In this document: piece by piece, positions 43,715 to 60,650 of the stretch | Layout: the number at the start of each line of letters is the position of its first letter | Numbering within the stretch: position 1 is the first letter of the stretch | Translations under genes and position numbers: made by a program | Assembly (NCBI RefSeq): GCF_026163685.1 | Contig: NZ_JAOXSR010000001.1 | Coordinates: 310,001 to 374,000, forward strand | Source: Oerskovia flava | GTDB taxonomy: Bacteria; Actinomycetota; Actinomycetes; Actinomycetales; Cellulomonadaceae | Reading direction: 5' to 3' | DNA length: 64,000 nucleotides | Notes under the pieces: generated by a model | Told to the model about the DNA's origin: nothing | The model's database searches: none | Seen by the model: the letters and a program-made list of their open reading frames with translations, nothing else

Positions 43715-44377
43715 TCAGCCGACGAGCACCACGTGCAGGGTCCGCGGGCCGTGGACACCCTCGACCCGGGAGAGCTCGATGTCGCTCGTCGCGCTGGGTC
43801 CGGAGATCCAGGTCTGGGGGCGGCCCGGGTACGCAGCGAGCAGGCGCACACCCTCGGGCACGGTGTGCACGACCTGCTCTGCCCGGACCACGCACACGTG
43901 CAGGTCGGGAACGAGCGAGATCGCCCGGCGGCCCTGGTCGGGTTCACCGTCGAGGACGATCGTGCCCGTGTCGGCGATCGCGACGCGGGCCGCGGTGACG
44001 ACCGCGTCGACCTCGTCCAGCTCGAGCGCCGAGCGAGGGTCCTCGCGGGAGTCCTGCACGACGACGGTGCCCGCCCCGAGCGCGTCCGTCCACCCCGCGG
44101 GCAGCCGGGGCGGCACGACGACGGAGCGTGCGTCGGCCAGCAGGTCGCCCACCACGCGGGCCACCTCGTCGTCACCGCTCGCCCGGTGCACGTGCGCCTT
44201 GTAGTCCTCCAGCCGGTCCACGAGGATCTCGAGCGCCGTCGCCGAGCCCGGTGCGTGCTCGCTCGCCGTCCGGTACGTGCGGGCGGGCTGCGCTGCGGAC
44301 GGCGCCGCAGCCCCTGCCTTCCCGTCGCCGGAGAGCGCGGCACGCACCCTGGCCAGGACCTCGTCGCGCGCGCTCAT
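43715..44377 (-). CDS. lutC: Lactate utilization protein C (LUD domain)
   Basis: 220 residues. The LUD-fold ending DIELSRVEGVHGPRTLHVVLVG is diagnostic. ADARSVVVPPRLPAGW and IADTGTIVLDGEPDQGRRAISLVPDLHVCVV are the core strands. It is part of the LutABC L-lactate dehydrogenase complex. It overlaps lutB by 4 bases (ATGA) and is last in the operon. Confidence 0.9.
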   Translation of the reverse strand: MSARDEVLARVRAALSGDGKAGAAAPSAAQPARTYRTASEHAPGSATALEILVDRLEDYKAHVHRASGDDEVARVVGDLLADARSVVVPPRLPAGWTDALGAGTVVVQDSREDPRSALELDEVDAVVTAARVAIADTGTIVLDGEPDQGRRAISLVPDLHVCVVRAEQVVHTVPEGVRLLAAYPGRPQTWISGPSATSDIELSRVEGVHGPRTLHVVLVG

Positions 44378-45957
44378 CGTGCATCGTCCTCGTCGTGCGG
44401 GGGGCCGTCGTGCGGGGGTTCGTTGTGCGTGGGTCCGTCGTGGTCCTCGGCCCACCAGGACCGGAAGCTCTGCCGGGCGGGGACGGGCAGGTCTCTCGAC
44501 GACGTCCAGCGCGACCCCGGGAACGGGAGCCGCGACACGCGTCCGTCGCGACCGCCGGCCAGGCGGCCGAGCACCGCCGCCTTCTCGGCGAGCTCGAACC
44601 GCCGCTCGTCGCGCATGACGAACGACGCGGCCTTCATCGCGGCGCCCCACCCCGTCGGCCGGCCCTCGCGGTCGGCGTCGACCTCGCGCGCCCGCAGCTC
44701 GACGAGGATCGACGGGATGTCGATCTTCACGGGGCAGACGTCGTAGCACGCGCCGCACAGCGTCGACGCGTAGGGGAGCGCGGAGTTCGGGTCGTCGTGC
44801 CGCCCGCCGCCCCCGGCCGAGCTCTTCGTCAGCTGCGGTGTGAGGATCGCGCCGATCGGCCCGGGGTAGACCGAGCCGTAGGCGTGGCCACCGACCCGCT
44901 CGTAGACCGGGCACACGTTGAGGCACGCCGAGCAGCGGATGCAGTGCAGGGCGGCGCGGCCGACCTCGTCGGCGAGGACGTCGGTCCGGCCGTTGTCGAG
45001 CAGCACGAGGTGGAACGCCTGCGGCCCGTCACCCGGCGTGACGCCCGTCCACAGGGACGTGTACGGGTTCATCCGCTCGCCCGTGGAGGAGCGGGGGAGC
45101 AGCTGCAGGAACACCTCGAGGTCGGCGTAGGTCGGCACGAGCTTCTCGATGCCCATGACGGTGATGAGCGTCTCCGGGAGCGTCAGGCACATCCGCCCGT
45201 TGCCCTCGGACTCGACGACCGCGAGGGTGCCGGTGTCCACGACGCCGAAGTTCGCGCCGCTGATCGCGACCTTCGCGGAGAGGAACTTGCGCCGCAGGTG
45301 CGCGCGGGCGGCCATCGCGAGCTCGCGCGGTGCGTCCGTGAGGTCGGCGGGTACGTCGCCCATGCGCTGCAGGAAGATCTCGCGGATCTCGGCGCGGTTG
45401 CGGTGGATCGCGGGGACGAGGATGTGGGACGGCATGTCGTCGGCGAGCTGCACGATGAGCTCGGCGAGGTCGGTCTCGACGGCGGCGATGCCCTCGGCGG
45501 CGAGCGCCTCGTTGAGGCCGATCTCCTGCGTCGCCATCGACTTGACCTTGACGACCTCGGTCTCGCCCGTGGCCTTGACGAGGTCCGCGACGATCCGGTT
45601 GGCCTCGTCGGCGTCGCGGGCCCAGTGCACGACGCCGCCCCGTGCGGTGACGTTGCGCTCCAGCTCGGTGAGGAGCTCGGGCAGGCGTGCCATGACGTCG
45701 GTCTTGATCGCGGAGCCCGCGTCGCGCAGCGCCTCCCAGTCCGGGACCTCGTCGACGACGAGCGCGCGCTTGGCGCGGATGGTCGACGTCGCGTGGCCCA
45801 GGTTGGTCCGCAGCTGGGTGTTCGCGAGCGCGGCCCGGGCGGCGTCCGGGAATGTCTCGCCCCACCGCAGGGGGTCGTCGGGGTGCGGGACGTCGCCGAA
45901 CGGGGCGGCGTCGTCGGGCACGGTGCGACGGCGGGGGAGGCCGAGGAAGGTGCTCAT
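44374..45957 (-). CDS. lutB: Lactate utilization iron-sulfur protein B
   Basis: 527 residues. An N-terminal LUD domain (GGVVHWARDADEANRIVADLVKATG to LVPTYADLEVFLQLLPRSS) is followed by two 4Fe-4S ferredoxin motifs, CIRCSACLNVCP and CGACYDVCP. A C-terminal Pro/His/Asp-rich tail (GPTHNEPPHDGPPHDEDD) follows. It transfers electrons from lactate oxidation. It overlaps lutA and lutC by 4 bases on each side. Confidence 0.93.
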   Translation of the reverse strand: MSTFLGLPRRRTVPDDAAPFGDVPHPDDPLRWGETFPDAARAALANTQLRTNLGHATSTIRAKRALVVDEVPDWEALRDAGSAIKTDVMARLPELLTELERNVTARGGVVHWARDADEANRIVADLVKATGETEVVKVKSMATQEIGLNEALAAEGIAAVETDLAELIVQLADDMPSHILVPAIHRNRAEIREIFLQRMGDVPADLTDAPRELAMAARAHLRRKFLSAKVAISGANFGVVDTGTLAVVESEGNGRMCLTLPETLITVMGIEKLVPTYADLEVFLQLLPRSSTGERMNPYTSLWTGVTPGDGPQAFHLVLLDNGRTDVLADEVGRAALHCIRCSACLNVCPVYERVGGHAYGSVYPGPIGAILTPQLTKSSAGGGGRHDDPNSALPYASTLCGACYDVCPVKIDIPSILVELRAREVDADREGRPTGWGAAMKAASFVMRDERRFELAEKAAVLGRLAGGRDGRVSRLPFPGSRWTSSRDLPVPARQSFRSWWAEDHDGPTHNEPPHDGPPHDEDDAR

Positions 45958-46772
45958 CGGTGACCGCCCTCGGTCGCGCCGGCGCGCTCCTGCGTGCCCT
46001 GCGCCCCGACGGGTGCCGGCGCCGGGTCCTCGCGCGTGGAGGCGAGGATCTCTGCCAGGTGCATCGTCGCGACCCCGCTGCGTGCCCGGCTCAGCCCGCC
46101 GCCGATGTGCATCAGGCACGAGTAGTCGCCCGCCGTGACGACCGCGGCGCCCGTCGACGAGACGTTCGCCATCTTGTCGTGGAGCATCGCTGTGGAGGTG
46201 TCGGAGTTCTTCAGCGCGAACGTCCCGCCGAACCCGCAGCAGCTCTCGGCGTCCGGCAGCTCGACGAGGTTCATGGCCTCGACGGCGCGCAGCAGCTGCA
46301 GCGGCTTGTCGCCCACACGGATCATCCGCAGCGAGTGGCAGGTGGGGTGGTAGGTCACGCGGTGGGGGAACCATGCCCCGACGTCCGTCAGGCCGAGCAC
46401 GTCGACGAGCAGCTCGGAGAGCTCGTACGTCTTGGCCGCGACGGCCTCGGCCCGCGCCCCCAGGCCGTCGAGGCCCGCGCGACGGCAGACCATGCCCTGC
46501 TGGTGGCGGATCGACCCGGTGCAGGAGCCCGACGGCACGACGATCGCGTCCCACTCGCCGTCGAGCACGGGCTCGAACGTCTCGACGTGGTGGCGGATCA
46601 CCGGCACGGCCTCGTCGAAGTAGCCGGTGTTGACGTGCATCTGGCCGCAGCAGGTCTGCTTCTCGGGGAACACGACCTCGTGCCCGAGGCGCTCGAGCAG
46701 CCGGACGGTGGCGCGGGGGGCCTGCGGGAACATGACGTCGGCGATACAGGTGGCGGTCAGGGCGATACGCAT
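45954..46772 (-). CDS. lutA: Lactate utilization iron-sulfur protein A
   Basis: 272 residues with two CCG-type domains: EKQTCCGQM near 50 and DAESCCGFGG near 190, with CTGS and HPTCHSLR between. This heterodisulfide-reductase-like module is the LutA (YkgE) type. The ATG at 46772 has AGGAGA 5 nt upstream; a longer frame start would add unconserved residues. It is first in the lutABC operon, downstream of paired FadR-type operators. Confidence 0.92.
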   Translation of the reverse strand: MRIALTATCIADVMFPQAPRATVRLLERLGHEVVFPEKQTCCGQMHVNTGYFDEAVPVIRHHVETFEPVLDGEWDAIVVPSGSCTGSIRHQQGMVCRRAGLDGLGARAEAVAAKTYELSELLVDVLGLTDVGAWFPHRVTYHPTCHSLRMIRVGDKPLQLLRAVEAMNLVELPDAESCCGFGGTFALKNSDTSTAMLHDKMANVSSTGAAVVTAGDYSCLMHIGGGLSRARSGVATMHLAEILASTREDPAPAPVGAQGTQERAGATEGGHR

Positions 46773-46836
46773 CCGGTCTCCTGGGGGCGAGTCGGTTCCG
46801 GTCTCGCGACGCATCGGCGACGGTGCGCGACGAGGC

Positions 46837-46885
46837 TGTGGTCAGACCACAGAGGGACCACTGTAGACGATGTGGTCAGACCACA
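46837..46885. promoter_or_regulatory. Two identical FadR-type operators in lut promoter
   Basis: TGTGGTCAGACCACA is a perfect dyad at 46837-46851 and again at 46871-46885, with centres 34 bp apart. The second copy extends to ATGTGGTCAGACCACAT and ends 14 bp before the regulator -10 box. TGGTC-N-GACCA fits LldR-type FadR regulators. Confidence 0.85.
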
Positions 46886-46899
46886 TGACACCGTGTCGT

Positions 46900-46905
46900 T
46901 ACGCT
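46900..46905 (+). promoter_or_regulatory. -10 box TACGCT of leaderless lut regulator mRNA
   Basis: TACGCT, then 6 nt, then the GTG at 46912. Confidence 0.6.
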
Positions 46906-46911
46906 GGGCCC

Positions 46912-47625
46912 GTGCGCACCCACGAACGCGTCCTCGCCCGCATCGAGGCGGACCTCGCCGCCGGGCGCTGGGCCCTCGGCGAGCGCCTGCCCGGCGAACG
47001 CGTCCTCGCCGAGGAGCTCGGCGTCTCTCGGCCGTCCGTCCGCGAGGCGCTGCGGGTGCTCGAGGCGATGGGGATCGTGCGGACCGCGGTCGGGTCGGGG
47101 CCCGACGCCGGCGCCTCCGTCATCGACCGGCCGGCCGCCGGGCTCGGCGCGGCCGTGCGCCTGCACGTCGCCTCCGGGACGCTCGCGGTGCGGGACGTCG
47201 TCGAGACCCGGGTGCTGCTCGAGACCTGGGCGGTCGCCGAGGCGGCAGGGCGGGTGGGCGCGGGCAGCGTCGACGCCCAGGCCGTCGACGCGCTCCTCAC
47301 CGAGGCGAGCGGCCTGCTCGACCGGATGGACGACCCCGCGCTGTCGGCGACGGCCTTCCACGAGCTCGACGCGTCCTTCCACCTCGTCCTCGTGCGCCTC
47401 GCGGGGAACGCGCTGGTCGAGGCCGTCATGACGGGGCTGCGCGGCGCCGTCGAGTCCTACGTCGCGGCGGGCAGCGCCGGGCTGCCGTCGTGGGAGACCA
47501 CCGCGACGCGGCTGCGGGCCGAGCACCGCGGCGTGCTCGCCGCCGTCGGCGCGGGCGACGGGGCCGGTGCCGCCCGGGCCGTGCGCGAGCACATCGAGGG
47601 CTTCTACCGGGAGGCCGGTCTGTAG
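46912..47625 (+). CDS. FadR-type GntR regulator of lactate utilization
   Basis: 237 residues. The winged helix is VLARIEADLAAGRWALGERLPGERVLAEELGVSRPSVREALRVLEAMG, followed by a FadR-type C-domain (DVVETRVLLETWAVAEAAGRV and ELDASFHLVLVRLAGNALVEAVM). It is divergent from lutABC with two dyad operators between, so it is the probable lactate-responsive repressor (LldR/LutR-like). Confidence 0.9.
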   Translation: MRTHERVLARIEADLAAGRWALGERLPGERVLAEELGVSRPSVREALRVLEAMGIVRTAVGSGPDAGASVIDRPAAGLGAAVRLHVASGTLAVRDVVETRVLLETWAVAEAAGRVGAGSVDAQAVDALLTEASGLLDRMDDPALSATAFHELDASFHLVLVRLAGNALVEAVMTGLRGAVESYVAAGSAGLPSWETTATRLRAEHRGVLAAVGAGDGAGAARAVREHIEGFYREAGL

Positions 47626-47913: not shown

Positions 47914-49119
47914 TCAGCGGGCCGCCCAGGGAGCGCCGAGGTCCCGGAACGTCCGCCCGGTCCGGGACACCTCCTCGCACCAGGCGGCGACGTCGTGGAC
48001 CACGGGCCGGCGCTCGTCATCCTCGCCGACCCACGTGACGTGCTCGGCGGTGATCGGCGTGGGACCGGGGGCGGTGCGCACGGCCTCGAGGACCCGGGTG
48101 AAGGCTCCCGTGTCCCGCAGGTCGCACAGCAACCCCGCGTCGGGGTCCTGCCGCGCGGCGAGCAGGTCCGCCAGCAGGTCGATCCGGGTGTGCTGCTCGG
48201 TGCGCCGGCCGCGGGTCCCGTCGACATGGACGACGTCGGTCTCGTAGCCGAGGGTCACGGTGCCGAGCGTGCCGTGGACGACGACGCGCGCCGGGGTGCG
48301 CTCCTCGGCGCAGAGCGTCAGACCGCACGCGACCTGCGTGCCGTCGTGGGCCACGACCCGGACGGACGACGTGTCGTCGGCCTCGATCGGGTTCGCCCGG
48401 TAGAGGTCGACCTCGACCGACGCGACGTCCTGCGCGCGGGTGACGCCCGCGACCCGCAGGGCGGTGGCGACCGCGTGCGCGAGCGGGTTCGTCACGACGC
48501 CGTCGACGACGTCCCGGCCGCCCATGCGGCGTCGGCCGGCCCACGGTGCCCGCGCCCAGTACCCGGCGGTGCGGACCCACGTCCCCACCGCGCCGATCCG
48601 CACGACGTCGCCGATCTCGCCATCGGCCACGATCCGGGCGACCGCGTCGAGCGCGGTGGAGCCGAACGTCTGGAAGCCGACCTGGCACCGCCGTCCCGTC
48701 TCGGCGACGACCTGCACGAGCACCTCGTGCTCGGCGAGCGACGGGGTCGGCGGCTTCTCGAGGAGCACGTCGCACCCGGCCCGCAGCGCCGCCGTCGCCA
48801 GCGGCACGTGCGTGGGGATCGGGGTGCAGAGCACGACGACGTCGGGCCGGTGAGTGCCCAGCCCGTCGAGCGTCCCGCCGTCCGGCGAGCCGTCCAGCAG
48901 GTCGTCGAGCGCGGCGAACCACCGCGTGCCGGACGGCGTGTGCTCCTGGTCGCCGGGGCCCTGCGGGTCGACGACGGCGACCAGCTCGACGGTCCCGGCG
49001 GTGTGCAGGTCGACGAGCCGGCGCAGGTGCGAGGCGCCGTGGCCGTGCGCGCCGACGAGGGCGACGCGCGCGACTCGCGTGACGCCGGTGGTGCCGCTCG
49101 CCCGGGAGAGGTCAGGCAC
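47914..49119 (-). CDS. Gfo/Idh/MocA family oxidoreductase
   Basis: 401 residues. The N-terminal Rossmann fingerprint is VALVGAHGHGASHLRRL. LLEKPPTPSLAEHEVLVQV holds the conserved EKP, and CQVGFQTFGSTALDAV starts the C-terminal domain. The GTG start overlaps the LacI-DUF6807 gene by 8 bases, so the two are translated together. Gfo/Idh partners of DUF6807 proteins are usually sugar or sugar-acid oxidoreductases of glycoside breakdown; the exact substrate is not readable. Confidence 0.85.
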   Translation of the reverse strand: MPDLSRASGTTGVTRVARVALVGAHGHGASHLRRLVDLHTAGTVELVAVVDPQGPGDQEHTPSGTRWFAALDDLLDGSPDGGTLDGLGTHRPDVVVLCTPIPTHVPLATAALRAGCDVLLEKPPTPSLAEHEVLVQVVAETGRRCQVGFQTFGSTALDAVARIVADGEIGDVVRIGAVGTWVRTAGYWARAPWAGRRRMGGRDVVDGVVTNPLAHAVATALRVAGVTRAQDVASVEVDLYRANPIEADDTSSVRVVAHDGTQVACGLTLCAEERTPARVVVHGTLGTVTLGYETDVVHVDGTRGRRTEQHTRIDLLADLLAARQDPDAGLLCDLRDTGAFTRVLEAVRTAPGPTPITAEHVTWVGEDDERRPVVHDVAAWCEEVSRTGRTFRDLGAPWAAR

Positions 49120-51121
49120 GGGCCGTCTCCTCGCTGCTGCTCTCCGCTGTGCTGCTCTTCTCGATGCCTCGAGCGAGCCGGTCGGCGGTCCGGGCTGCGA
49201 GGTGCGCGGCCTCCTCGAGGGACAGTGCGTGATCCACGAGCACGGCTGACAACCCGATCTCGAGCGTCGAGCCCGCCGGGACGGTCAGGGGCTCGTCCCA
49301 CGCGAGCGCCGGACCCGCGCCGGGGTACTCGGCCGCCCGCACGAACCAGGGGCGCACCGTGTGCGGCGCGCCGTGCTGGAGGAGCAGGAGCGTCGTCGGC
49401 CCGGTCTCGTGGTCCTGGACGAACGCGACCCAGGGTGACGTCGAGCCGTGCGCGAGCTCCTCGCCCACGCCGGTCGCCGAGAGCACGGCGGTCGTCGCCG
49501 CGGGGGCGACGCGCCAGAAGAGCCCGCCGTAGCCCGCGCCGGGTCGCCCGTTGGTCGCCGGGCTCGCGATGACGAGGTCCCCGTGCTCGGCGTGCAGGGC
49601 GCTGCGCCAGTCGAGGACCCAGGCGTCCGTCCCGCCCGCGGCCTCGGCGACGAGCTCGCAGCGCAGCGTGCGCTCCTCGCGCGCCTGGGGATCGCCCGAG
49701 GCGGCGGACCAGAGGACCTCGTCGTGCAGGGTGGTCCCGTCGGCCCGGGCGCCGCCGCTGACCTGGCGCCCGTGGTTGTCGAGGAGCGTCGGGCCCTCGT
49801 CGCGCACGAACGTCCGTCCGCCCCAGTGGCTCGTGCCGTTGACGTCCGCGACCGCGACCGACGCGCCGTAGTGGTGGCGGTGGTCCACCGGCCCGGCATC
49901 GGTGAGGGCGATGCCGCCGAGCGTGTGCACGGGGTGCAGGAACGGGCGGGGCGAGTGCACGGCGGGGATCCGGTCGCCGGGCTCGTAGCGTGCCAGGTGC
50001 AGGTCCCCGAGCGCGAGAACGCTCGCGTCACCCTCGGACCGCCAGCGCGGGCCGGGGGCGGACGGTGTGGCCGCGCCGCGCGGCGGCGGTACCGGGCCGG
50101 TGCTCGCCCGCACCTCGATGCGGGGCTCGAACTGCGTCGGACCGAGCGTGGCCGGGTCGACGCCGGGGTCGTTGATCACGGCCCGCAGACGCTCCCACGC
50201 ACGTCGCCCGAGATCTGCCTGCGGGACGGCCGCCGTCGTCAGGGACGGCGTCGAGAAGCGGGCGAGCTCGATGTCGTCGAAGCCGACGATCGAGACGTCG
50301 CCGGGAACCGCGACGCCGGTCTCGTTGAGCCGGGCGAGCAGCCCGAACGCCACGAGGTCGTTGAACGCGACCACCGCGGTGGCGCGGGTCGCGAGCGCGG
50401 TGTCCGCGGCGGCGAAGCCCGCGTCGACGGTCGACCCGCAGGGCAGGTGGTCGATGCGCACGTCGGGGTGCCGCTCGCGCGCCACCCGCAGGCCGCGCAG
50501 GCGTGCCGCGTCGGACGCGCTGCCGACCGGGCCGGCGAGGTACGCGAGATGGCGGTGGCCGAGCGCCACCAGGTGCTCGACGACGGCGGTCGCGCCGTGC
50601 GCGAAGTCGATGGACAGCGTCGGCGTGGCCGCGGAGCCGGGCTGGGGTGCGGTGAGCTCGCGGTTGACGAGCACCACCGGGTGCGCGCGGGGGAGCAGCT
50701 CGCGCAGGTCCTGCTCGGGCATCCGCGGTGAGACGAGGACGAGGGCGTCGCACCGCAGCCGGGCCTCGAGCGCGATCTCCGCCTCGGCGCTCGGGTTCTC
50801 CGCGGTGTCGGCGACCAGCACCCGGTAGCCGTCGGGGTCCGCCGCGCTCATGATGCCGCGCAGGATCTGCTGGAACAGGGGGTTGCCGAGGTCCGGCACG
50901 ACGAGCGCGACCGTCTCGGTCCGCCCGAGGGACAGGCTCCGCGCGACGTTGCTCGGCCGGTACTGAAGCTCGGCCGCAGCCTCGCGGACCCGGCGGCTGA
51001 TCTCCGGGTCGACCGTGGACCGGCCGTTCATCACCCGGGAGACCGTGGCTCGCGAGACCCCGGCCGCGCTCGCGACCTCGGCGATCGTCACGGTCGGACG
51101 TCGCTCGCTCACCTTCGACAT
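49112..51121 (-). CDS. LacI-family repressor fused to a DUF6807 domain
   Basis: 669 residues, about twice a normal LacI. The HTH is VTIAEVASAAGVSRATVSRVMNG at about 10-33. The hinge and periplasmic-binding-like domain (about 60-340) runs from TVALVVPDLGNPLFQQILRGI to SIVGFDDIELARFSTPSLTT. From about 360 a DUF6807 (so-called PmoA) domain follows: SVLALGDLHLARYEPGDRIPAVHSPRPFLHPVHTLGG, VDHRHHYGASVAVADVNGTSHW and WVLDWRSALHAEHG. GGAGG lies 5 nt before the ATG. It is divergent from a sugar ABC importer with CCGG-centred LacI dyads between. The methane-monooxygenase label of DUF6807 is misleading. The fused domain may sense or process the inducer. Confidence 0.85.
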   Translation of the reverse strand: MSKVSERRPTVTIAEVASAAGVSRATVSRVMNGRSTVDPEISRRVREAAAELQYRPSNVARSLSLGRTETVALVVPDLGNPLFQQILRGIMSAADPDGYRVLVADTAENPSAEAEIALEARLRCDALVLVSPRMPEQDLRELLPRAHPVVLVNRELTAPQPGSAATPTLSIDFAHGATAVVEHLVALGHRHLAYLAGPVGSASDAARLRGLRVARERHPDVRIDHLPCGSTVDAGFAAADTALATRATAVVAFNDLVAFGLLARLNETGVAVPGDVSIVGFDDIELARFSTPSLTTAAVPQADLGRRAWERLRAVINDPGVDPATLGPTQFEPRIEVRASTGPVPPPRGAATPSAPGPRWRSEGDASVLALGDLHLARYEPGDRIPAVHSPRPFLHPVHTLGGIALTDAGPVDHRHHYGASVAVADVNGTSHWGGRTFVRDEGPTLLDNHGRQVSGGARADGTTLHDEVLWSAASGDPQAREERTLRCELVAEAAGGTDAWVLDWRSALHAEHGDLVIASPATNGRPGAGYGGLFWRVAPAATTAVLSATGVGEELAHGSTSPWVAFVQDHETGPTTLLLLQHGAPHTVRPWFVRAAEYPGAGPALAWDEPLTVPAGSTLEIGLSAVLVDHALSLEEAAHLAARTADRLARGIEKSSTAESSSEETARA

Positions 51122-51242: not shown

Positions 51243-51291
51243 GGGAAACCGGTTCCCTGCGTGCTACAGTCCTCGATCAGCAACCGGTTTC
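51243..51291 (+). promoter_or_regulatory. LacI operators flanking the importer -10 box
   Basis: GGAAACCGGTTCCC (51244-51257) and GCAACCGGTTTC (51280-51291) are near-palindromes centred on CCGG, with centres 35 bp apart. TACAGT (51265-51270) between them is a likely -10 box of the importer operon. The CCGG core is unusual for the LacI family, where CG-centred sites prevail. Confidence 0.7.
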
Positions 51292-51398: not shown

Positions 51399-52340
51399 AT
51401 GTCCGTCCTCGGTGAGCTACGCTCGTCCCGCAAGGCCGCGAGCGGGCCCAGGGCCCGTGGGGGCCTGCGACGCGGTGACGGCCGGGCGGCGGCCCTCTTC
51501 CTCGCCCCGTGGTTCGCCGGTCTGCTCCTCATCACCGCGGGCCCGATGGTCGCCTCGGGATACCTCTCCCTCACGAACTACAACCTTCTGCAGCCGCCCG
51601 AGTGGATCGGCCTCGACAACTACTCGCGGATGCTCGAGGACCCGCGCCTCCTGAACTCCCTCCAGGTCACGTTCACCTACGTGTTCGTCTCGGTGCCGCT
51701 GCAGCTGGCCGCGGCGCTCGCGCTCGCCCTGCTGCTCGACCGGGGGCTCAAGGGCCTCGCCATCTACCGGTCGGTCTACTACCTGCCCTCCCTGCTGGGC
51801 GGCAGCGTCGCCATCGCGATCCTGTGGCGCCAGGTCTTCGGTTCCGACGGTCTGGTCAACCAGGTCCTCGCCTTCTTCGGCGTCCAGGGCCAGGGGTGGG
51901 TGTCGCACCCCGACTACGCGCTCGGCACCTTGATGGCCCTCAACGTGTGGACCTTCGGGGCACCGATGGTGATCTTCCTCGCCGGCCTGCGGCAGATCCC
52001 GCAGATGTACTACGAGGCCGCGTCGATCGACGGCGCGGGCAAGATCCGCCAGTTCCGCTCGATCACCGTCCCGCTGCTGACGCCGATCATCTTCTTCAAC
52101 CTCGTCCTGCAGGTGATCAACGCCTTCCAGACGTTCACCCAGGCCTACGTGGTCTCGGGCGGCACCGGCGGTCCCGCCGACTCGACGATGTTCTACACGC
52201 TGTACCTGTACCAGCGGGGCTTCGGGGCCCTCGACATGGGGTACGCCTCCGCCATGGCCTGGCTGCTCCTCGCGATCGTCGCCGGGATGACGGCCGTCAA
52301 CTTCCTCGCCTCCAAGTACTGGGTCTTCTACAATGACTGA
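51399..52340 (+). CDS. Sugar ABC transporter permease (MalF type)
   Basis: 313 residues with six helices starting RAAALFLAPWFAGLLLITAGPMV. The EAA loop is YYEAASIDGAGKIRQFRSITVPLLTP. GGGAGG lies 5 nt before the ATG at 51399. It is the first gene of the importer operon and overlaps the next permease by 8 bases. No ATPase is encoded here. Confidence 0.9.
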   Translation: MSVLGELRSSRKAASGPRARGGLRRGDGRAAALFLAPWFAGLLLITAGPMVASGYLSLTNYNLLQPPEWIGLDNYSRMLEDPRLLNSLQVTFTYVFVSVPLQLAAALALALLLDRGLKGLAIYRSVYYLPSLLGGSVAIAILWRQVFGSDGLVNQVLAFFGVQGQGWVSHPDYALGTLMALNVWTFGAPMVIFLAGLRQIPQMYYEAASIDGAGKIRQFRSITVPLLTPIIFFNLVLQVINAFQTFTQAYVVSGGTGGPADSTMFYTLYLYQRGFGALDMGYASAMAWLLLAIVAGMTAVNFLASKYWVFYND

Positions 52341-53262
52341 CGCGACCGTGCGCGACGCCGCGCCCCCTGCCACCACGACCCTCACCGAGCTGGCGGCATC
52401 GATGCCGCCGGGACCGCCTCGGCGGTTCCGCCGCCGCTCCAGCGTGAAGTCGGCGCTCAAGCACACGGGCCTCATCGCCTTCGGCTTCGTGATGCTCTAC
52501 CCGCTGCTGTGGATGATCGCGAGCTCGTTCAAGCCCTCGGCGCTGATCTTCCGCGAGCCCGGCCTCATCCCGAGCGAGGTCGACCTCAGCAACTACTCCG
52601 AGGGCTGGAACGCGCTGCTGCACCCGTTCAGCCACTACCTCATGAACTCGGCGATCATCGTCGCCGGATCGCTGCTGGGGAACCTGCTCGCGTGCTCGCT
52701 CGCGGCCTACGCGTTCGCGCGGCTGAAGTTCAAGGGCCGCACCCTGTGGTTCGCGATCATGCTCATGTCGATCATGCTGCCGATCCACGTCATCATCGTG
52801 CCGCAGTACATCCTGTTCTCCCAGCTGGCGTGGATCAACACGTTCCTGCCGCTGATCGTGCCCAAGCTGCTCGCCACGGACGCGTTCTTCATCTTCCTCA
52901 TGGTGCAGTTCTTCCGCGGCATCCCGACCGAGCTCGACGAGGCGGCGCGCCTCGACGGCTGCGGGCACGGACGCATCTTCTTCCGCATCATGCTGCCGTT
53001 GTCGGTGCCCGCCCTGGCCACGACCGCGATCTTCACCTTCATCTGGACGTGGAACGACTTCTTCAGCCAGCTGATCTTCCTCACCAAACCCGACATGTAC
53101 ACGGTCCCGGTCGCGCTGCGCACGTTCGTCGACTCGACCGGCCAGAGCTCGTGGGGCTCGCTCTTCGCGATGTCGATCGTGTCCCTGATCCCCGTGTTCC
53201 TCGTCTTCCTCTTCGGCCAGAAGTACCTGGTCAAGGGCATCGCCACGACCGGCATCAAGTAG
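52333..53262 (+). CDS. Sugar ABC transporter permease (MalG type)
   Basis: 309 residues. A ~40-residue soluble N-terminus precedes six helices starting HTGLIAFGFVMLYPLLWMIASSF. The EAA loop is LDEAARLDGCGHGRIFFRIMLPLSVPA. It pairs with the MalF-type permease upstream. Confidence 0.9.
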   Translation: MTDATVRDAAPPATTTLTELAASMPPGPPRRFRRRSSVKSALKHTGLIAFGFVMLYPLLWMIASSFKPSALIFREPGLIPSEVDLSNYSEGWNALLHPFSHYLMNSAIIVAGSLLGNLLACSLAAYAFARLKFKGRTLWFAIMLMSIMLPIHVIIVPQYILFSQLAWINTFLPLIVPKLLATDAFFIFLMVQFFRGIPTELDEAARLDGCGHGRIFFRIMLPLSVPALATTAIFTFIWTWNDFFSQLIFLTKPDMYTVPVALRTFVDSTGQSSWGSLFAMSIVSLIPVFLVFLFGQKYLVKGIATTGIK

Positions 53263-53321
53263 CCGGTCACGGTCCGTACGCAGGCAAACAACGACGTTTC
53301 GTCACGCACCCAAGGAGAGTC

Positions 53322-54668
53322 ATGAGTACATCGATCACCCACCGGCAGCGCCCTGCCCGGGGCGCCCTCCTGAAGGTCGGCGCGCTGCTGACCGTCGGGG
53401 CGCTCGCCCTCGGTGCCTGCGGCGGTGACCGCGGCGCCGCAGGCCCGGCCGACACCGACACGACCGCCGCCGAGGAGGGGGAGGACGTCACCATCCGCTT
53501 CTCGTGGTGGGGGTCGGACACCCGGCACGAGGTGACGCAGGAGGTCCTCGACCTCTTCATGGCGGAGAACCCGGACATCACCGTGGTCGGTGACTTCACC
53601 GACTGGGGCGGCTACTGGGACAAGCTGTCCACGACGGTCGCGGCGGGCGACGCCCCGGACGTCATCACGCAGGAGGAGCGCTACCTCGCGGACTACGCGA
53701 GCCGCGGCGTGCTCGCCGACCTCAGCACCCTCGACATCGACACGGCCGAGGTCGACCCGGGCGTCGTCGCGTCGGGCGAGGTGGACGGCGGCCTCTACGG
53801 GATCGCGACCGGGATCAACGCGTACGCGGTCGTCGCCGACCCGCAGATCTTCGCCGACGCGGGCGTCGAGATGCCCGACGACACCACGTGGACGTGGGAC
53901 GACTACGTCGAGATCGCGTCGGAGATCTCCGCGAGCGGCGAGGACGTCTTCGGCGCCCAGGACTACGGGTTCAACGAGCCCGGCTTCGCGATCTGGGCCC
54001 GGCAGCAGGGCCAGAACCTCTACACGCCCGAGGGCACGCTCGGCTACGACGAGCAGACCCTCGCCGACTGGTGGCAGACCTCGCTCGACCTCCAGGACTC
54101 GGGTGGCACGCCCGACGCCGCGCGGTCCGTCGAGATCGACGCCGGCGGCCCCGAGCAGTCGCTCCTCGGCACGAACACCGGCGCGATGGGCGTGTGGTGG
54201 ACCAACCAGCTCGGGGCGATCTCCGCGGCCGCCGGCCGTGACCTGGAGCTGCTGCGCTTCCCCGGTGAGTCGGAGCACGAGCGGACCGGCATGTACTTCA
54301 AGCCGGCCATGTACTACTCGGTGGCCGAGACGTCCCAGCACCCGGAGGCCGCCGCGAAGCTCGTCGACTTCCTGCTCAACGACCCGGCGGCCGGTGAGCT
54401 GATGCTCTCCGACCGCGGCATGCCGGCCAACACGTCGGTGCGTGACGGGATCCAGGAGCTCCTGCCGCCGGTGGAGCAGCAGGCCGCCGCGTTCCTCGAG
54501 GACCTCGAGGACGAGATCGTCGACGGCGCGCCCGTCCCGCCGGTCGGCGCCGGTGAGGTCGTCGAGATCATCCGCCGGATCAACACGGAGGTCCTCTTCG
54601 GCCGGCTCAGCCCGCAGGAGGCCGCCGCACAGTTCACGGCCGAGGTCGAGGCCGCGACCGGCAGCTAG
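53322..54668 (+). CDS. Extracellular sugar-binding lipoprotein (ABC importer)
   Basis: 448 residues. The lipobox is LTVGALALGACGGD, with Cys near 33. The mature protein starts VTIRFSWWGSDTRHEVTQEVLDLF, a family-1 solute-binding fold with many aromatic residues in the cleft (WGGYWDKLSTTVAAGDAPDVI). AAGGAGA lies 4 nt before the ATG. A terminator-like hairpin after its stop limits read-through into the oxidoreductase gene, as is common for binding-protein genes that need excess product. The ligand is inferred to be the glycan broken down by the adjacent enzymes. Confidence 0.9.
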   Translation: MSTSITHRQRPARGALLKVGALLTVGALALGACGGDRGAAGPADTDTTAAEEGEDVTIRFSWWGSDTRHEVTQEVLDLFMAENPDITVVGDFTDWGGYWDKLSTTVAAGDAPDVITQEERYLADYASRGVLADLSTLDIDTAEVDPGVVASGEVDGGLYGIATGINAYAVVADPQIFADAGVEMPDDTTWTWDDYVEIASEISASGEDVFGAQDYGFNEPGFAIWARQQGQNLYTPEGTLGYDEQTLADWWQTSLDLQDSGGTPDAARSVEIDAGGPEQSLLGTNTGAMGVWWTNQLGAISAAAGRDLELLRFPGESEHERTGMYFKPAMYYSVAETSQHPEAAAKLVDFLLNDPAAGELMLSDRGMPANTSVRDGIQELLPPVEQQAAAFLEDLEDEIVDGAPVPPVGAGEVVEIIRRINTEVLFGRLSPQEAAAQFTAEVEAATGS

Positions 54669-54710: not shown

Positions 54711-54754
54711 TGCTCGTCCCACCGGAGTCCCACCCGGGAAAGGAAACCCCCGAC

Positions 54755-56116
54755 ATGCCCCACGCCCCGTCCCTCGCCCCCGCCGCCCCGGGTGCCGCAG
54801 CCGTCGCCGGCCGCGTCCCGCCGTCGGCCCCCGAGCGCCGGCGCTACGCCGTGGCAGGTACCGGGCACCGCGCGCAGATGTACGTCGACGCCCTGCAGGG
54901 CCCGCACGCCGACGTCGGGCAGCTCGTGGCGTGGTGCGAGCCCAACCCGGTGCGGGCGGCGTACTACGACGCGCTCGTCGGCACCGCGCGCCCGACGTAC
55001 GCACCCGCGGACCTCGAGCGCATGATCGTCGACGAGCAGGTCGACACGGTCGTGGTGACGAGCCCGGACCGGACGCACGCGGACGTCGTCGGGCGCGCCA
55101 TGCGTGCCGGTGCCGACGTGGTCCTCGAGAAGCCGATGACCACGAGCGTCGAGGGCTGCCACGACATCCTCGCCGCGGTGCGGGACACGGGTCGCGACCT
55201 CGTGCTGACCTTCAACTACCGCTACTCCCCGCGGAACTCCGCCCTCAAGCAGGTCGTGGCGTCGGGGGAGATCGGCGAGGTCACCTCGGTGCACTTCGAG
55301 TGGGTCCTCGACACGATGCACGGCGCCGACTACTTCCGCCGCTGGCACCGCGAGAAGGCCACCTCCGGCGGGCTGCTCGTGCACAAGGCGAGCCACCACT
55401 TCGACCTGGTCAACTGGTGGCTCGCGGACGACCCCACGTTCGTCGTCGCGCGCGGCGGCCTGCGCTTCTACGGCGACTCGGGGGCCGGCGCCGCCACCGC
55501 CGACCCCGCGCCCTTCGCGCTCGACCTCGACGACGACCCGCGGCTCGCGAGCCTCTACGGCGACGCCTCCCAGCACGACGGCTACCGGCGCGACCAGGAC
55601 GTGTTCGCCCCCGGGGTGAGCATCGAGGACACCCTGTCCGTGCTCGTCGAGTACTCGCGCGGCGCCCTGCTCACCTACTCCCTGACGGCGTACGGCCCGT
55701 GGGAGGGGTATCGCGTCTCGGTGACCGGCACCCGCGGGCGCGCCGAGCTCGAGGTCGTCGAGCGCGCCGCCGTGCTCGTCGGCGACGAGGGCCGCCTGGT
55801 GCTCGACCCGAGCGCGGTCGAGGACGCCTCGGTGGACCCGGTACGCCGGCGCGGCGAGCGGCTCGTCGTCCAGCGCCACTGGGAGCCCGCCCGCGAGGTC
55901 GAGATCCCGCAGGGGGAGGGTGCGCACGGAGGCGGCGACGCCGTCCTGCTCGCGGACCTGTTCCGCGGTGCGGGCGACGACCCGCTCGGTCGGCCGGCAG
56001 GCCTGCGGGACGGGGTGCTCTCGACCGCCGTCGGGCTGGCCGCGAACCGGTCCCTCGCGAGCGGGGAACCGGTGCGGATCGCCGACCTCGGGCTGCACGT
56101 CGGGGAGCGCCCATGA
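54755..56116 (+). CDS. Gfo/Idh/MocA family oxidoreductase
   Basis: A 453-residue member. The Rossmann fingerprint is YAVAGTGHRAQMYVDAL near 30, and VVLEKPMTTSVEGCHDIL holds the EKP. NYRYSPRNSALKQVVASGEIGEV and HKASHHFDLVNWWLADDP form the C-terminal domain. AAAGGAAA lies ahead of the ATG at 54755. It overlaps the altronate-dehydratase-type gene by 4 bases, so it is probably a sugar-acid or glycoside oxidoreductase of the same pathway. It might replace the missing hexonate dehydrogenase. Confidence 0.85.
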   Translation: MPHAPSLAPAAPGAAAVAGRVPPSAPERRRYAVAGTGHRAQMYVDALQGPHADVGQLVAWCEPNPVRAAYYDALVGTARPTYAPADLERMIVDEQVDTVVVTSPDRTHADVVGRAMRAGADVVLEKPMTTSVEGCHDILAAVRDTGRDLVLTFNYRYSPRNSALKQVVASGEIGEVTSVHFEWVLDTMHGADYFRRWHREKATSGGLLVHKASHHFDLVNWWLADDPTFVVARGGLRFYGDSGAGAATADPAPFALDLDDDPRLASLYGDASQHDGYRRDQDVFAPGVSIEDTLSVLVEYSRGALLTYSLTAYGPWEGYRVSVTGTRGRAELEVVERAAVLVGDEGRLVLDPSAVEDASVDPVRRRGERLVVQRHWEPAREVEIPQGEGAHGGGDAVLLADLFRGAGDDPLGRPAGLRDGVLSTAVGLAANRSLASGEPVRIADLGLHVGERP

Positions 56117-57678
56117 CCGTCACGACCCACGCGAGCGACGTCCTGCTCGTCCTGCGGGCGGGTGACGACGTCGCCGTCGCCACCCGCGACCTCGTGGCCG
56201 GGACGATCGTCGACGGCGTCCCGTCCGGAACGGTGGAGGGCGAGTCCCTGACCGTCGCCGGCGAGGTCCCGCGCGGCCACAAGATCGCGCTGCGCGACGT
56301 CGCGGCGGGCGCGCGCGTCCACAAGTACGGCCAGTCGATCGGTGTCGCGACGCGCGACGTCGCGGCGGGCGAGCACGTGCACTCGCACAACCTCGCGATG
56401 GACACCTCCGAGCACACCGGGCACGAGCTCGGGGGCCAGCACGTCGAGCTGGCGGTCCCGCCCGGGCCGCGCCCCACGTTCCGCGGGTACCGCCGCGCGG
56501 ACGGGAAGGTCGGCACCCGCAGCTACGTCGCGATCCTCACGTCGGTCAACTGCTCGGCCAGCACCGCGCGGATGATCGCCGACCAGTTCCGCGGGCTCGC
56601 GATGGACGCCTACGGCGACGTCGACGGCGTCGTCGCGCTCACCCACACCTCCGGGTGCGGCCTCGTGCCCGCGAGCGAGGGCGCCCAGGTGCTCCTGCGC
56701 ACGCTGCGCGGGTACGCCCAGCACCCCAACGTCACCGGCATCCTCGTGCTCGGCCTCGGCTGCGAGATGATCGCCGTCGACACGATCCTCGCGGGCGCGC
56801 AGGTCTCGCCCGACACCCTGGTGCGGACCCTGACCATCCAGGACTCGGGCGGTGTCCGTGCGACCGTGCGCGCCGGGGTCGCCGCCGTGCGGGAGATGGC
56901 CGACGAGATCGACGCGCGCTTCGCGCGCGAGGACTGCGACGTCTCCGAGCTGGTGCTCGGGCTGAACTGCGGCGGCTCCGACGGGTACTCGGGGATCACC
57001 GCGAACCCGGCGCTCGGCCAGGCGTCCGACCGGCTCGTCGCCTACGGCGGCACGTCGGTGCTCGCGGAGACGCCTGAGGTGTTCGGCGCCGAGCACCTGC
57101 TCACCCGGCGCGCGGTGACCCCCGAGGTCGCCCAGCGCCTGCTGGACCGCCTGGAGTGGTGGCAGGGCTACGCCGCCGCCGGCGGCGGGAGCCTCGACAA
57201 CAACCCCTCGCCCGGCAACAAGGCCGGCGGCCTGACGACGATCCTCGAGAAGTCGCTCGGTGCGGTCGCCAAGGGCGGGCAGGCCGACCTCGCGGCCGTC
57301 CACGAGTACGCCGACCCCCTCGACACCAAGGGCTTCGTCTTCATGGACACGCCCGGGTACGACCCCGTCTCCGTCACGGGCATCGTCGCCGGCGGTGCGA
57401 CCGTCGTGTGCTTCACGACCGGCCGCGGGTCCGTGTTCGGGTGCAAGCCCACGCCGTCGATCAAGCTCGGGACCAACAGCGAGCTCTACGAACGGATGGC
57501 CGAGGACATCGACATCGACTGCGGTCGCATCGTCACGGGCGACGCGACCCTCGAGCAGGTCGGCGACGAGATCTTCGCGCGCATCCTCGCCGTCGCGTCG
57601 GGGGAGCAGACCGTCAGCGAGGAGCTCGACCTCGGTGGCGAGGAGTTCGTCCCCTGGCAGCTCGGCACGGTGACATAG
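56113..57678 (+). CDS. Altronate dehydratase-family protein (UxaA type)
   Basis: 521 residues. An N-terminal SAF domain (GHKIALRDVAAGARVHKYGQSIGVAT and DVAAGEHVHSHNLAMD) is followed by the galactarate dehydratase/altronate hydrolase domain. That domain has GYRRADGKVGTRSYVAIL, the Cys-rich text THTSGCGLVPASEG, LNCGGSDGYSGITANPALG and TTGRGSVFGCKPTPSIKLGTN. It dehydrates altronate, or a related hexonate, to a 2-keto-3-deoxy sugar acid. The ATG overlaps the upstream stop (ATGA). Galactarate- or idonate-type substrates cannot be excluded. Confidence 0.88.
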   Translation: MTVTTHASDVLLVLRAGDDVAVATRDLVAGTIVDGVPSGTVEGESLTVAGEVPRGHKIALRDVAAGARVHKYGQSIGVATRDVAAGEHVHSHNLAMDTSEHTGHELGGQHVELAVPPGPRPTFRGYRRADGKVGTRSYVAILTSVNCSASTARMIADQFRGLAMDAYGDVDGVVALTHTSGCGLVPASEGAQVLLRTLRGYAQHPNVTGILVLGLGCEMIAVDTILAGAQVSPDTLVRTLTIQDSGGVRATVRAGVAAVREMADEIDARFAREDCDVSELVLGLNCGGSDGYSGITANPALGQASDRLVAYGGTSVLAETPEVFGAEHLLTRRAVTPEVAQRLLDRLEWWQGYAAAGGGSLDNNPSPGNKAGGLTTILEKSLGAVAKGGQADLAAVHEYADPLDTKGFVFMDTPGYDPVSVTGIVAGGATVVCFTTGRGSVFGCKPTPSIKLGTNSELYERMAEDIDIDCGRIVTGDATLEQVGDEIFARILAVASGEQTVSEELDLGGEEFVPWQLGTVT

Positions 57679-57769: not shown

Positions 57770-59065
57770 TCACCAGTCGTGGACCGTGCCGTCCTTGAGC
57801 CGGTTGAACGGCAGGTAGGCGGGCTGGTACTCGAAGCGGGCGGCGGCCTCGTCGTCGTGCTCGACGCCGAGACCCGGGGCGTCGCCCGGGTGCAGGTGGC
57901 CGTCGACGAACGTGAACGACTGCCGGAACACCTCGTCGGTGAGCGGCGAGTGCTTCATGTACTCCTGGATCCCGAAGTTGTGGATCGCGAGGTCAAGGTG
58001 CAGCGCGGCGGCCATGCCGACCGGCGAGATGTCGGTCGGCCCGTGGATGCCCGACTTGATCTGGTACTGCGCTGCGAAGTCGAGGATGCGGCGCAGGGCC
58101 GTGATGCCGCCCGTGTGGGTCACGGCCGAGCGCACGTAGTCGACGAGCTGCTCACGGATGATCGTCTGGTAGTCCCAGACCGTGTTGAAGATCTCGCCGA
58201 TCGCGAGCGGTGTCGTCGTGTGGTGCCGGACCAGGCGCAGGGCCTCCTGGTTCTCGGCGGGGGTGCAGTCCTCGAGCCAGAAGAGGTCGTACGGCTCGAG
58301 GTCCTTGCCGAGCCGCGCCGCCTGGATCGGGGTCATGCGGTGGTGGCCGTCGTGCAGGAGCGGCAGCTCCGGCCCGAACTCGGCGCGGACCGCCTCGAAG
58401 ACGCCCGGGACGTGGCGCAGGTAGGCGCGGGTGTCCCAGTCCTCCTCTGCCGGCAGCGGCGCCCGCCGCGCGGGTTCGTAGTCGTAGCGCCCGCCCTCGG
58501 ACGCCTGCGCCGCGACGCCGTAGACGGCGTCGACGCCCGGGACCGACGTCTGCACGCGGATCGAGCGGTAGCCCTCGTCGAGGTGCTGGCGGATCGAGTC
58601 GAACAGCTCGGGCAGGTCACGGCCGGACGCGTGCCCGTACGCCATGATGCCCCGCCGGGAGGCCCCGCCCAGGAGCTGGTACAGCGGCAGTCCGGCGAGC
58701 TTCGCCTTGATGTCCCACAGCGCGACGTCGACCGCCGCGATCGCGGCCATCGTCACCGGTCCGCGGCGCCAGTAGGCGCTGCGGTAGAGGAACTGCCACG
58801 TGTCCTCGATGGTGTGCGCGTCGCGCCCGATCAGCAGCGGCACGACGTGGTCCCGCAGGTAGGACGCGACGGCGAGCTCGCGGCCGTTGAGCGTGGCGTC
58901 GCCGAGCCCGGTGACGCCGTCGGAGGTCGTGATGCGCAGCGTGACGAAGTTGCGGCCCGGGCTCGAGACGAGCACCTCCGCCGAACGGATCGCGGTACCG
59001 CCGGGCGTGGCGGACGGCGCGGTCGAGCCCTGCGGGGTGGGCGTCGTCGGGGTGTGGGTCGTCAT
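57770..59065 (-). CDS. D-mannonate dehydratase-family enolase (ManD/RspA type)
   Basis: 431 residues, enolase superfamily. Mg ligands are Asp in LLHDGHHRM, Glu in [11 protein letters not shown] and Glu in [14 protein letters not shown] following HTGG and [13 protein letters not shown] carry the catalytic His, and GYRSIRVQ holds an Arg. The texts are ManD-like. It probably makes 2-keto-3-deoxygluconate from mannonate (or gluconate in low-activity members). GGAGA lies 5 nt before the ATG. It is in the same direction as the uronate isomerase, 49 bp upstream of it, which suits an operon. Confidence 0.86.
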
Positions 59066-59114: not shown

Positions 59115-60614
59115 TCAGGCGCCGGGCCGCGGGTAGGAGGCCTTCGGCAGGTGGTAGGCAAGGTCGACGGCGGTCTCGACAGCCTCGTCGAGCCCGAGCC
59201 GGTGCTCGGCGACCAGGCGGGCGAGGTGCCCGGCGTCGACGCGGCGGGCGAGGTCGTGCCGCGCGGGGATCGAGCAGAAGGCTCGGGTGTCGTCGACGAA
59301 CCCGCTCGTGTTGTAGAAGCCCGCGGTGTCGGTCGCGGTCTCGCGGAAGCGCCGCATGCCGTCCGGGGTGTCGAGGAACCACCACGGCGCCCCGAGGCGC
59401 AGGGCGGGGTAGGCCCCGGCGAGCGGGGCGAGCTCGCGCGAGAACGACGTCTCGTCGACCGTGAACGCGATGAGCCGGAAGTTCTTGTGGTGGCCGAACG
59501 CCTCCAGCACGGGCCGCAGCGCGTGCACGTACTCGGTGGCCACCGGGACGTCGTACCCCTTGTCCTGGCCGTAGGCGCGGACCACCTCGCCGCAGTGGTC
59601 GCGCAGCACCCCGGGGTGGAGCTGCATGACGAGGCCGTCCTCGGCGGACATCGACGCCATCTGGAACAGCATGTGGGCGGAGAACGCCGCTGCGTCCTCC
59701 GCAGACGCCTCGCCGCGCAGCGCGGCGTCGACGATCCGTGCCGCGTCGGCGTCGTCGAGCGGCGTCGTGTCGGCGGACAGGTGGCCGTGGTCGGTCGCGC
59801 GAGCACCGGCCGCGACGAACGCGGCCCGGCGGGAACGCAGGGCGTCGAGGTAGCTCGCGTAGCCGACGACGTCGGCCCCTGCGGCCTCCCCGAGCGCGCG
59901 CACGTGGTCCGACCAGTCCGGCCGGTCGACGTGGAGCAGCGGGTCGGGGCGGAACGTCGGGACGACCCGGTCGCCCCACCCGTCGGCCGCGAGGCGGGCG
60001 TGGTCGACGAGCGGGGACTGCGCCGGGTCCGTCGTGGCGAGGATCTCGATGTTGAACTGCTCGAAGAGCGCCCGCGGGCGGAACTCCGGTCGTGCGAGGC
60101 GGTCCACGAGGTGGTCGAACAGCTCGTCGGCGGTCTCGGTGGACGGCGCGACGGGAGCGTCGAAGACGTCGACGAGCGCGTGCTCGAGCCAGTATCGCGT
60201 CGGTGTCCCGCGGTACAGGTGCCACCCCGCGCAGAAACGTCGCCAGATCTCGCGCGGGTCCGTCTCGGCGGCCGGCGTGCCCTGCGGGGCGGAGCCCACG
60301 GGGGAGACCCCGAGGCTGTGCACACCGTCGACCCCGGGGGCTCCGTGGCGGGAGGTGCTCTGCGCGACGAGCATGCGCACGAGGTAGTGGTCGGGGGTGA
60401 TGAACAGCTCGGCCGGGTCACCGAACGGGGCGTCGTCGGCGAGCAGGCCCGCGTCGACGTGCCCGTGCATCGACACGACGGGCAGGCCGGCGGTGGCGGC
60501 GTAGATCTCGCGTGCCAGCGGGCGCAGCGCCGTGTCGGCGGGCAGGGCGCGGTCGGGGTGGAGCGACCACGAGGCCGGCGCGGTGGTCGTGTGACGGTGG
60601 GCCGTGCTGGTCAA
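59115..60614 (-). CDS. uxaC: Glucuronate (uronate) isomerase
   Basis: 499 residues, UxaC family amidohydrolase-fold enzyme; interconverts D-glucuronate/fructuronate and D-galacturonate/tagaturonate. The metal site is in [12 protein letters not shown]. Later features are [24 protein letters not shown] and [12 protein letters not shown]. The TTG at 60614 is the start because AGGAGG lies 5 nt upstream; an upstream ATG at 60650 sits in the operator. It is expressed with the ManD-type gene. It feeds both the altronate and mannonate branches. Confidence 0.9.
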
Positions 60615-60634
60615 GTGATCCTCCTGAGACGTGG

Positions 60635-60650
60635 ATGCGAACGTTTGCAT
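60635..60650 (-). promoter_or_regulatory. LacI-type operator at uxaC
   Basis: ATGCGAACGTTTGCAT matches its reverse complement at 7 of 8 pairs and is centred on CG, the classical LacI/GalR pattern. A looser copy lies at 60691-60705. It is unlike the CCGG dyads at 51244-51291, so another repressor may bind here. Confidence 0.65.

Follow-up and report, generated by a model that had tools for sequence, protein, structure and literature searches.

A LacI-type repressor fused to a DUF6807 domain in Oerskovia flava, and its probable place in pectin and uronate breakdown

Introduction

What is a domain of the DUF6807 family doing at the end of a transcriptional repressor, and which genes does that repressor control? 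The question arises from a single gene of Oerskovia flava, lying in a 64,000-nucleotide stretch of contig NZ_JAOXSR010000001.1 (hereafter the window, meaning the whole stretch of DNA analyzed), in which a LacI-type regulator and a DUF6807 domain (PF14100) are read as one chain. The open-access literature searched contains neither a proven activity or function for DUF6807, PF14100 or PmoA-named members nor a report of a LacI-DUF6807 fusion. Published appearances of the domain include a PF14100 reading frame that shares a putative operon with two novel beta-galactosidases (PMC5342196) and the use of PF14100 as a marker of the methane monooxygenase PmoA (PMC10291797). The analysis described here combines domain searches, comparative genomics, operator mapping and structure prediction, and the fusion most likely represents a pectin/uronate repressor joined to an enzyme-like protein from the same pathway.

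The Fusion Gene and Its Neighborhood

Both LacI domains, the helix-turn-helix and the effector domain, and a complete DUF6807 are encoded in one uninterrupted frame of 669 codons (Table 1). In Pfam searches, PF00356 scored 55.5 bits against a cut-off of 27, and the effector region was recognized by Peripla_BP_3 (PF13377; residues 181-341, 100 bits) and by PF00532 (79 bits). The PF14100 match reached 204 bits against a cut-off of 27 and covered profile positions 4-269 of 270, that is, its full length. The effector domain also matches the CcpA structure 1rzr (E = 1.5e-41), and the sugar-contact residues R197, N246 and D274 of LacI correspond to R207, N254 and D282 of the fusion, residues that are identical in all 45 fusions compared. 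By its helix-turn-helix, effector domain, sugar-contact residues and palindromic operator, the N-terminal half is, on sequence grounds, a LacI-family transcription factor.

A sequence-only reading of this DNA had placed both parts in a single 669-residue chain, overlapped over 8 bases by a Gfo/Idh gene. The frame, the Pfam domains and the GTG at 49119, inside the end of the fusion, bear this out; the coordinates given for the gene also stand, and the strand, absent from that account as are the operators and the regulon, is minus. Several in-frame GTG codons occur within the gene (residues 315, 337, 388 and others), none with a clear upstream Shine-Dalgarno sequence, and an internal start yielding a free DUF6807 protein is not supported by the sequence.

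Table 1. Coordinates of the fusion, its domains, candidate operators and neighboring genes in the window.
Feature	Position	Strand	Details
Gfo/Idh oxidoreductase gene	47914..49119	minus	GTG start 49119; PF01408; 8-bp overlap with fusion
LacI-DUF6807 fusion gene	49112..51121	minus	669 aa; ATG at 51121; stop 49114-49112
DUF6807 domain	49196..50017	minus	residues 369-642; PF14100; beta-sandwich in AlphaFold2 model
LacI effector-binding domain	50099..50917	minus	residues about 69-341; PF00532/PF13377
LacI helix-turn-helix	50951..51088	minus	residues 12-57; PF00356
Operator 1 GAAACCGGTTCC	51245..51256	none	candidate by sequence
Operator 2 GCAACCGGTTTC	51280..51291	none	candidate by sequence; 35 bp from operator 1
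ABC sugar importer permease 1	51399..52340	plus	divergent; PF00528
ABC importer permease 2	52333..53262	plus	PF00528
ABC importer solute-binding protein	53304..54668 (start approximate)	plus	PF13416/PF01547
Second Gfo/Idh oxidoreductase	54752..56116	plus	PF01408
Altronate/galactarate dehydratase-like, UxaA/GarD family	56158..57678 (start approximate)	plus	PF20629, PF04295
D-mannonate dehydratase ManD	57770..59059	minus	NF043051; 704 bits, cut-off 550
Uronate (glucuronate) isomerase UxaC	59115..60650	minus	NF002794; 498 bits, cut-off 387

Of 110 fusion loci, 86 have an ortholog of the Gfo/Idh gene close by and 24 show no Gfo/Idh neighbor, and the importer genes are kept in 82 of the 86 loci that have both fusion and Gfo/Idh. 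At the edge of the window, a large minus-strand protein (60776-64000, its N-terminus beyond the window) carries PA14, DUF7133/SGL, CBM35/CBM6 and 3-keto-disaccharide hydrolase (PF06439) domains. On the opposite side, LutA/LutB-type lactate utilization genes (44377-46814, minus) directly adjoin the pectin locus, with a FadR-type GntR regulator (46870-47622, plus) divergent from them; LutA/LutB and GntR genes also adjoin the fusion in some relatives.

Conservation of the Fusion

A fused gene may reflect an assembly or sequencing error that joins two genes, and the earlier reading had named precisely this outcome, with separate genes in the homologues, as fatal to its proposal. The homologues turned out to be fused. 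With the fused-type DUF as query, 279 relatives were recovered from 84,980 species genomes; among the best 80, which were inspected, 79 are fused in frame in independent named actinobacterial assemblies. These belong to Cellulosimicrobium, Cellulomonas, Isoptericola, Promicromonospora, Myceligenerans, Demequina, Antribacter, Sanguibacter, Kribbella, Actinophytocola, Ruania and others, and the fusion protein belongs to plant-polymer-degrading soil actinobacteria. Within the family, 107 of 222 genomes encode DUF6807, and LacI and DUF share a common frame in 60 of the 107 DUF matches at loci of GTDB relatives. Three loci depart from the single frame: at L113, a long branch in the DUF tree, LacI and DUF6807 are two genes with an ATGA overlap and an adjoining GH43 gene, and at L056 and L067 the two parts are out of frame. 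Since both the 60 GTDB matches and the 79 named loci are in frame, the fusion is neither chance nor assembly error, and an artefact deserves practically no credence.

The fusion occurs in several families of the order. A 396-genome sample of the phylum, in which the three best candidates per genome were scored, gave no further full-length fusion outside the order. A plasmid search matched the LacI part, with no match covering 80% of the query, and a PHROGs search gave no match.

Operators and the Pectate Lyase Regulon

The promoter common to the fusion and the ABC sugar importer contains a pair of conserved candidate operators, GnAACCGGTTnC, placed between the fusion ATG at 51121 and the divergent permease ATG at 51399. 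This sequence is a palindrome with a central CG, found near predicted target promoters, and its two matches within the window compare with 0.05 expected. A fixed 16-mer palindrome rule missed most operators because their flanks vary, and the core AACCGGTT recovered them. In the 22 kb upstream of fusions this core has 66 occurrences, compared with 19 in the remaining 567 kb of locus DNA, and all 66 upstream cores carry the outer G and C of GnAACCGGTTnC. Among the paired sites, 50 pairs are spaced by 34/35 bp and 24 by 45/46 bp, counts that come from partly redundant loci, and the two classes differ by one helical turn. A few loci have operators 87-99 bp apart. Most fusion loci have a pair or a single site directly upstream of the fusion, out to Kribbella and Actinophytocola.

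Across the whole genome, only four operator sites were found, the locus pair and one at each of two PL1 pectate lyase genes. One site lies 31 bp upstream of the first lyase gene (L114:3095-5071) and the other just upstream of the second (L115:1288-3015); these are the sole two PF00544 genes of the genome. In 14 other fusion genomes, a PL1 gene adjoins 20 of 40 distant sites by tblastn, the remaining half having no adjoining PL1 gene, and the 55 reading frames flanking the distant sites include 19 matches to Pectate_lyase_4, 3 to pectinesterase and 2 to a PL9-type helix. As a control, 20 operator sites taken from fusion-free genomes were inspected, and none lies beside PL1. The distribution of the enzymes follows that of the fusion, with PL1 present in 22 of 26 fusion genomes vs 1 of 28 without it; the Fisher p of 5e-10 is too small and overstates the evidence, because the compared genomes are related. 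Even so, PL1 presence and absence alternate inside single genera (g4, g9 and g17). A separate observation concerns Promicromonospora, where the fusion gene has as its neighbor a protein of 1113 aa (L246:7062-10400) that combines a pectinesterase domain with two stretches of pectate lyase.

Each genome encodes dozens of LacI-like candidates (59 at first look) and LacI operators are alike, so the operator and the pectate lyase sites might belong to another LacI paralogue while the fusion controls something else. Such an assignment is very improbable, given the sites directly upstream of most fusions in genera as distant as Kribbella and Actinophytocola and the control sites that never adjoin PL1. 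It is highly probable, instead, that the LacI half represses a pectin/uronate regulon. Read from the DNA, the sites point to a tie between the fusion and pectin breakdown, hinting at where DUF6807 acts. The earlier guess of uronic acids as ligands gains support from the pectate lyase regulon and the UxaA, UxaC and ManD neighbors.

Free DUF6807 Genes and Unfused Operons

That DUF6807 is elsewhere a separate protein next to a Gfo/Idh gene had been stated in the sequence-only reading, and the genomes agree. The same genome has a second, free DUF6807 gene (L001, G000:C1:395187-396071) downstream of another Gfo/Idh gene. Ten fusion-free loci of the family contain the same importer, a related Gfo/Idh gene (49-57% identity) and, directly downstream of it, a free DUF6807; UxaA and UxaC are often present at these orthologous loci, and several have a separate LacI gene. 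The DUF tree places the free copies of these operons as sister to the fused clade; the latter forms almost a single group. Because DUF6807 stands as a free gene in unfused orthologous operons, the domain is, judging by gene order, a component of the operon's pathway that in the fusion clade is located on the repressor. At the Sanguibacter-type loci L067 and L068, a LacI-linked DUF6807 is accompanied by an additional free copy beside Gfo/Idh, a natural duplication for telling two DUF6807 roles apart.

Fold and Conserved Residues of the DUF6807 Half

The AlphaFold2 model of the DUF6807 half (pLDDT 95.3) forms a galactose-mutarotase-like beta-sandwich and ends with a long helix (residues 635-668). 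In VIA-align, its best match is the PL26 exo-rhamnogalacturonan lyase 5xqg (Z 17.3); several mutarotases and lyase or hydrolase sandwich domains match at Z 14-16.7, including several mutarotases at Z 15-16 over 210-227 residues. Foldseek gave weak matches (E 4e-4 at best, TM only 0.3-0.4), and a PDB sequence search with a 69-row DUF6807 profile found no relative. As modeled, DUF6807 has the galactose mutarotase-like beta-supersandwich fold, and a shared fold alone tells nothing about its function. PmoA identity was considered and rejected: a helical membrane fold would be expected, and the confident model is a beta-sandwich with one terminal helix. The methane monooxygenase label, already doubted from the sequence, is therefore unsupported. 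Since PF14100 is DUF6807, the PF14100-based PmoA counts of PMC10291797 probably do not reflect methane oxidation.

The other outcome that had been named as refuting was a second half that is only a generic beta-sandwich without pocket conservation. The sandwich part of that statement stands; the domain is not an eroded generic one, because at least 90% of fused members keep 41 of the 53 positions conserved in both free DUF6807 groups, the other 12 being altered. The kept positions include H396, D413, H414, E482, R484, R526, W536, R537, W592, R595 and D630. W416, Y444, H455 and, nearly, N431 have been lost from the fused clade and are fixed in both free groups; because of these losses, the activity of the fused domain may be altered or gone. 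One further position varies with gene context: all fusions that neighbor Gfo/Idh retain H417, and H417Q appears only where that neighbor is missing, in 13 fusions (L088-L094, L097, L101-L103, L250 and L252) that have no Gfo/Idh directly downstream. The substitution probably arose in two or three evolutionary events and may mark loss of catalysis.

These losses open the tentative possibility that a former enzyme now serves as a second ligand sensor, in which binding of an intermediate would change operator binding without catalysis. The absence of W416, Y444 and H455 fits such a sensor, as do the fusions without a Gfo/Idh neighbor, 13 of them with H417Q, the second free DUF6807 at L067 and L068, and the precedent of BzdR, a regulator with an enzyme-derived domain (PMC3602430). 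On the other hand, W416H, Y444P/S, N431S and the loss of H455 also occur in free copies nested within the fused clade (L067_11415 and L068_7965), so they mark the clade and not the fusion. Moreover, the 41 kept positions include H396, D413, H414, E482, R484, R526, R537 and R595, and the LacI half has intact effector residues of its own.

Proposed Function and Significance

The preferred reading, which we hold to be moderately probable, is a local pectin/uronate repressor on one chain with a sugar-processing-type protein from the pathway under its control. It is based on the operator, the PL1 sites and distribution, the occurrence of DUF6807 as a separate gene in the unfused operon, the 41 kept DUF6807 positions, the invariant LacI effector residues and the retention of H417 next to Gfo/Idh. 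The LacI half would bind the paired GnAACCGGTTnC operators between the fusion and the ABC importer, as well as single sites at distant pectate lyase and pectinesterase genes, and would let go once a pectin-derived sugar, the ligand we infer, occupies the intact LacI pocket. Release would induce the importer, the lyases, the fusion itself and the overlapping Gfo/Idh gene. Because the operator pair lies in the divergent promoter, the arrangement suggests joint induction of the importer with the fusion and Gfo/Idh, as would suit an enzyme. The DUF6807 half would then act on the same sugar chemistry, with presumed mutarotase-, epimerase- or lyase-type catalysis, alongside its Gfo/Idh partner, and the repressor would carry its own pathway enzyme. 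That DUF6807 is such an active pathway domain working with Gfo/Idh is itself rated slightly above even.

A structural role was weighed as well, in which DUF6807 fixes the oligomeric state or operator pairing, like the C-terminal tetramerization helix of LacI. Joined dimers are suggested by the paired operators, whose spacing of 34/35 or 45/46 bp is helically phased, and the long helix at residues 635-668 ends the model; nevertheless, this role leaves the kept polar residues and the conserved Gfo/Idh neighbor unexplained, and it is improbable. A more elaborate form of the pathway-enzyme reading places two metabolic inputs on one chain, the LacI pocket for the inducer and an active DUF6807 that, with Gfo/Idh, makes or removes it. 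Although doubtful, it would mean that the repressor sets its own ligand level, a built-in control of the signal, and would give DUF6807 its first function.

The analysis places a large uncharacterized family in one concrete pathway, the breakdown of pectin and uronates alongside a Gfo/Idh partner, so that DUF6807 substrates can be chosen instead of guessed. It also offers a conserved example of a repressor that would bear a protein of the pathway under its control, with natural fused, split and duplicated versions on hand for comparison, and an operator sequence that lists the regulon.

Comparison with Known Systems

LacI-family regulators of uronate and pectin genes are known, namely KdgR, UxaR, UxuR and ExuR, as set out by Ravcheev et al. 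2014 (PMC4052901); what is new here is the conserved operator. The fusion resembles these regulators in its helix-turn-helix, its periplasmic-binding-like effector domain, its palindromic operator with central CG and its predicted regulation of uronate genes, and differs from them in the additional 280-residue DUF6807 domain. The words "fused" and "fusion" are absent from the main text of that survey.

With other DUF6807 proteins (PF14100, formerly labeled methane oxygenase/PmoA), the C-terminal half shares a full-length domain and family-wide conserved residues, whereas unlike the free members it is joined to a repressor, has DHxHH in place of DHxWH and has lost H455. Galactose mutarotase-like proteins, the PL26 lyase 5xqg, HepC and GH36 sandwich domains resemble it in fold (Z 14-17 over ~200-240 residues; Foldseek E about 1e-3), yet their identity to it is 7-11%, and a common fold is no evidence of function.

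Other regulators joined to domains derived from enzymes include NadR, PutA, ROK repressors and MurR. The present protein, like BzdR (PMC3602430), unites a DNA-binding regulator and a metabolic-enzyme-type domain on one chain. Unlike BzdR, NadR, PutA, ROK repressors and MurR, it keeps LacI whole, sensor domain included, and adds a second domain of metabolic type behind it.
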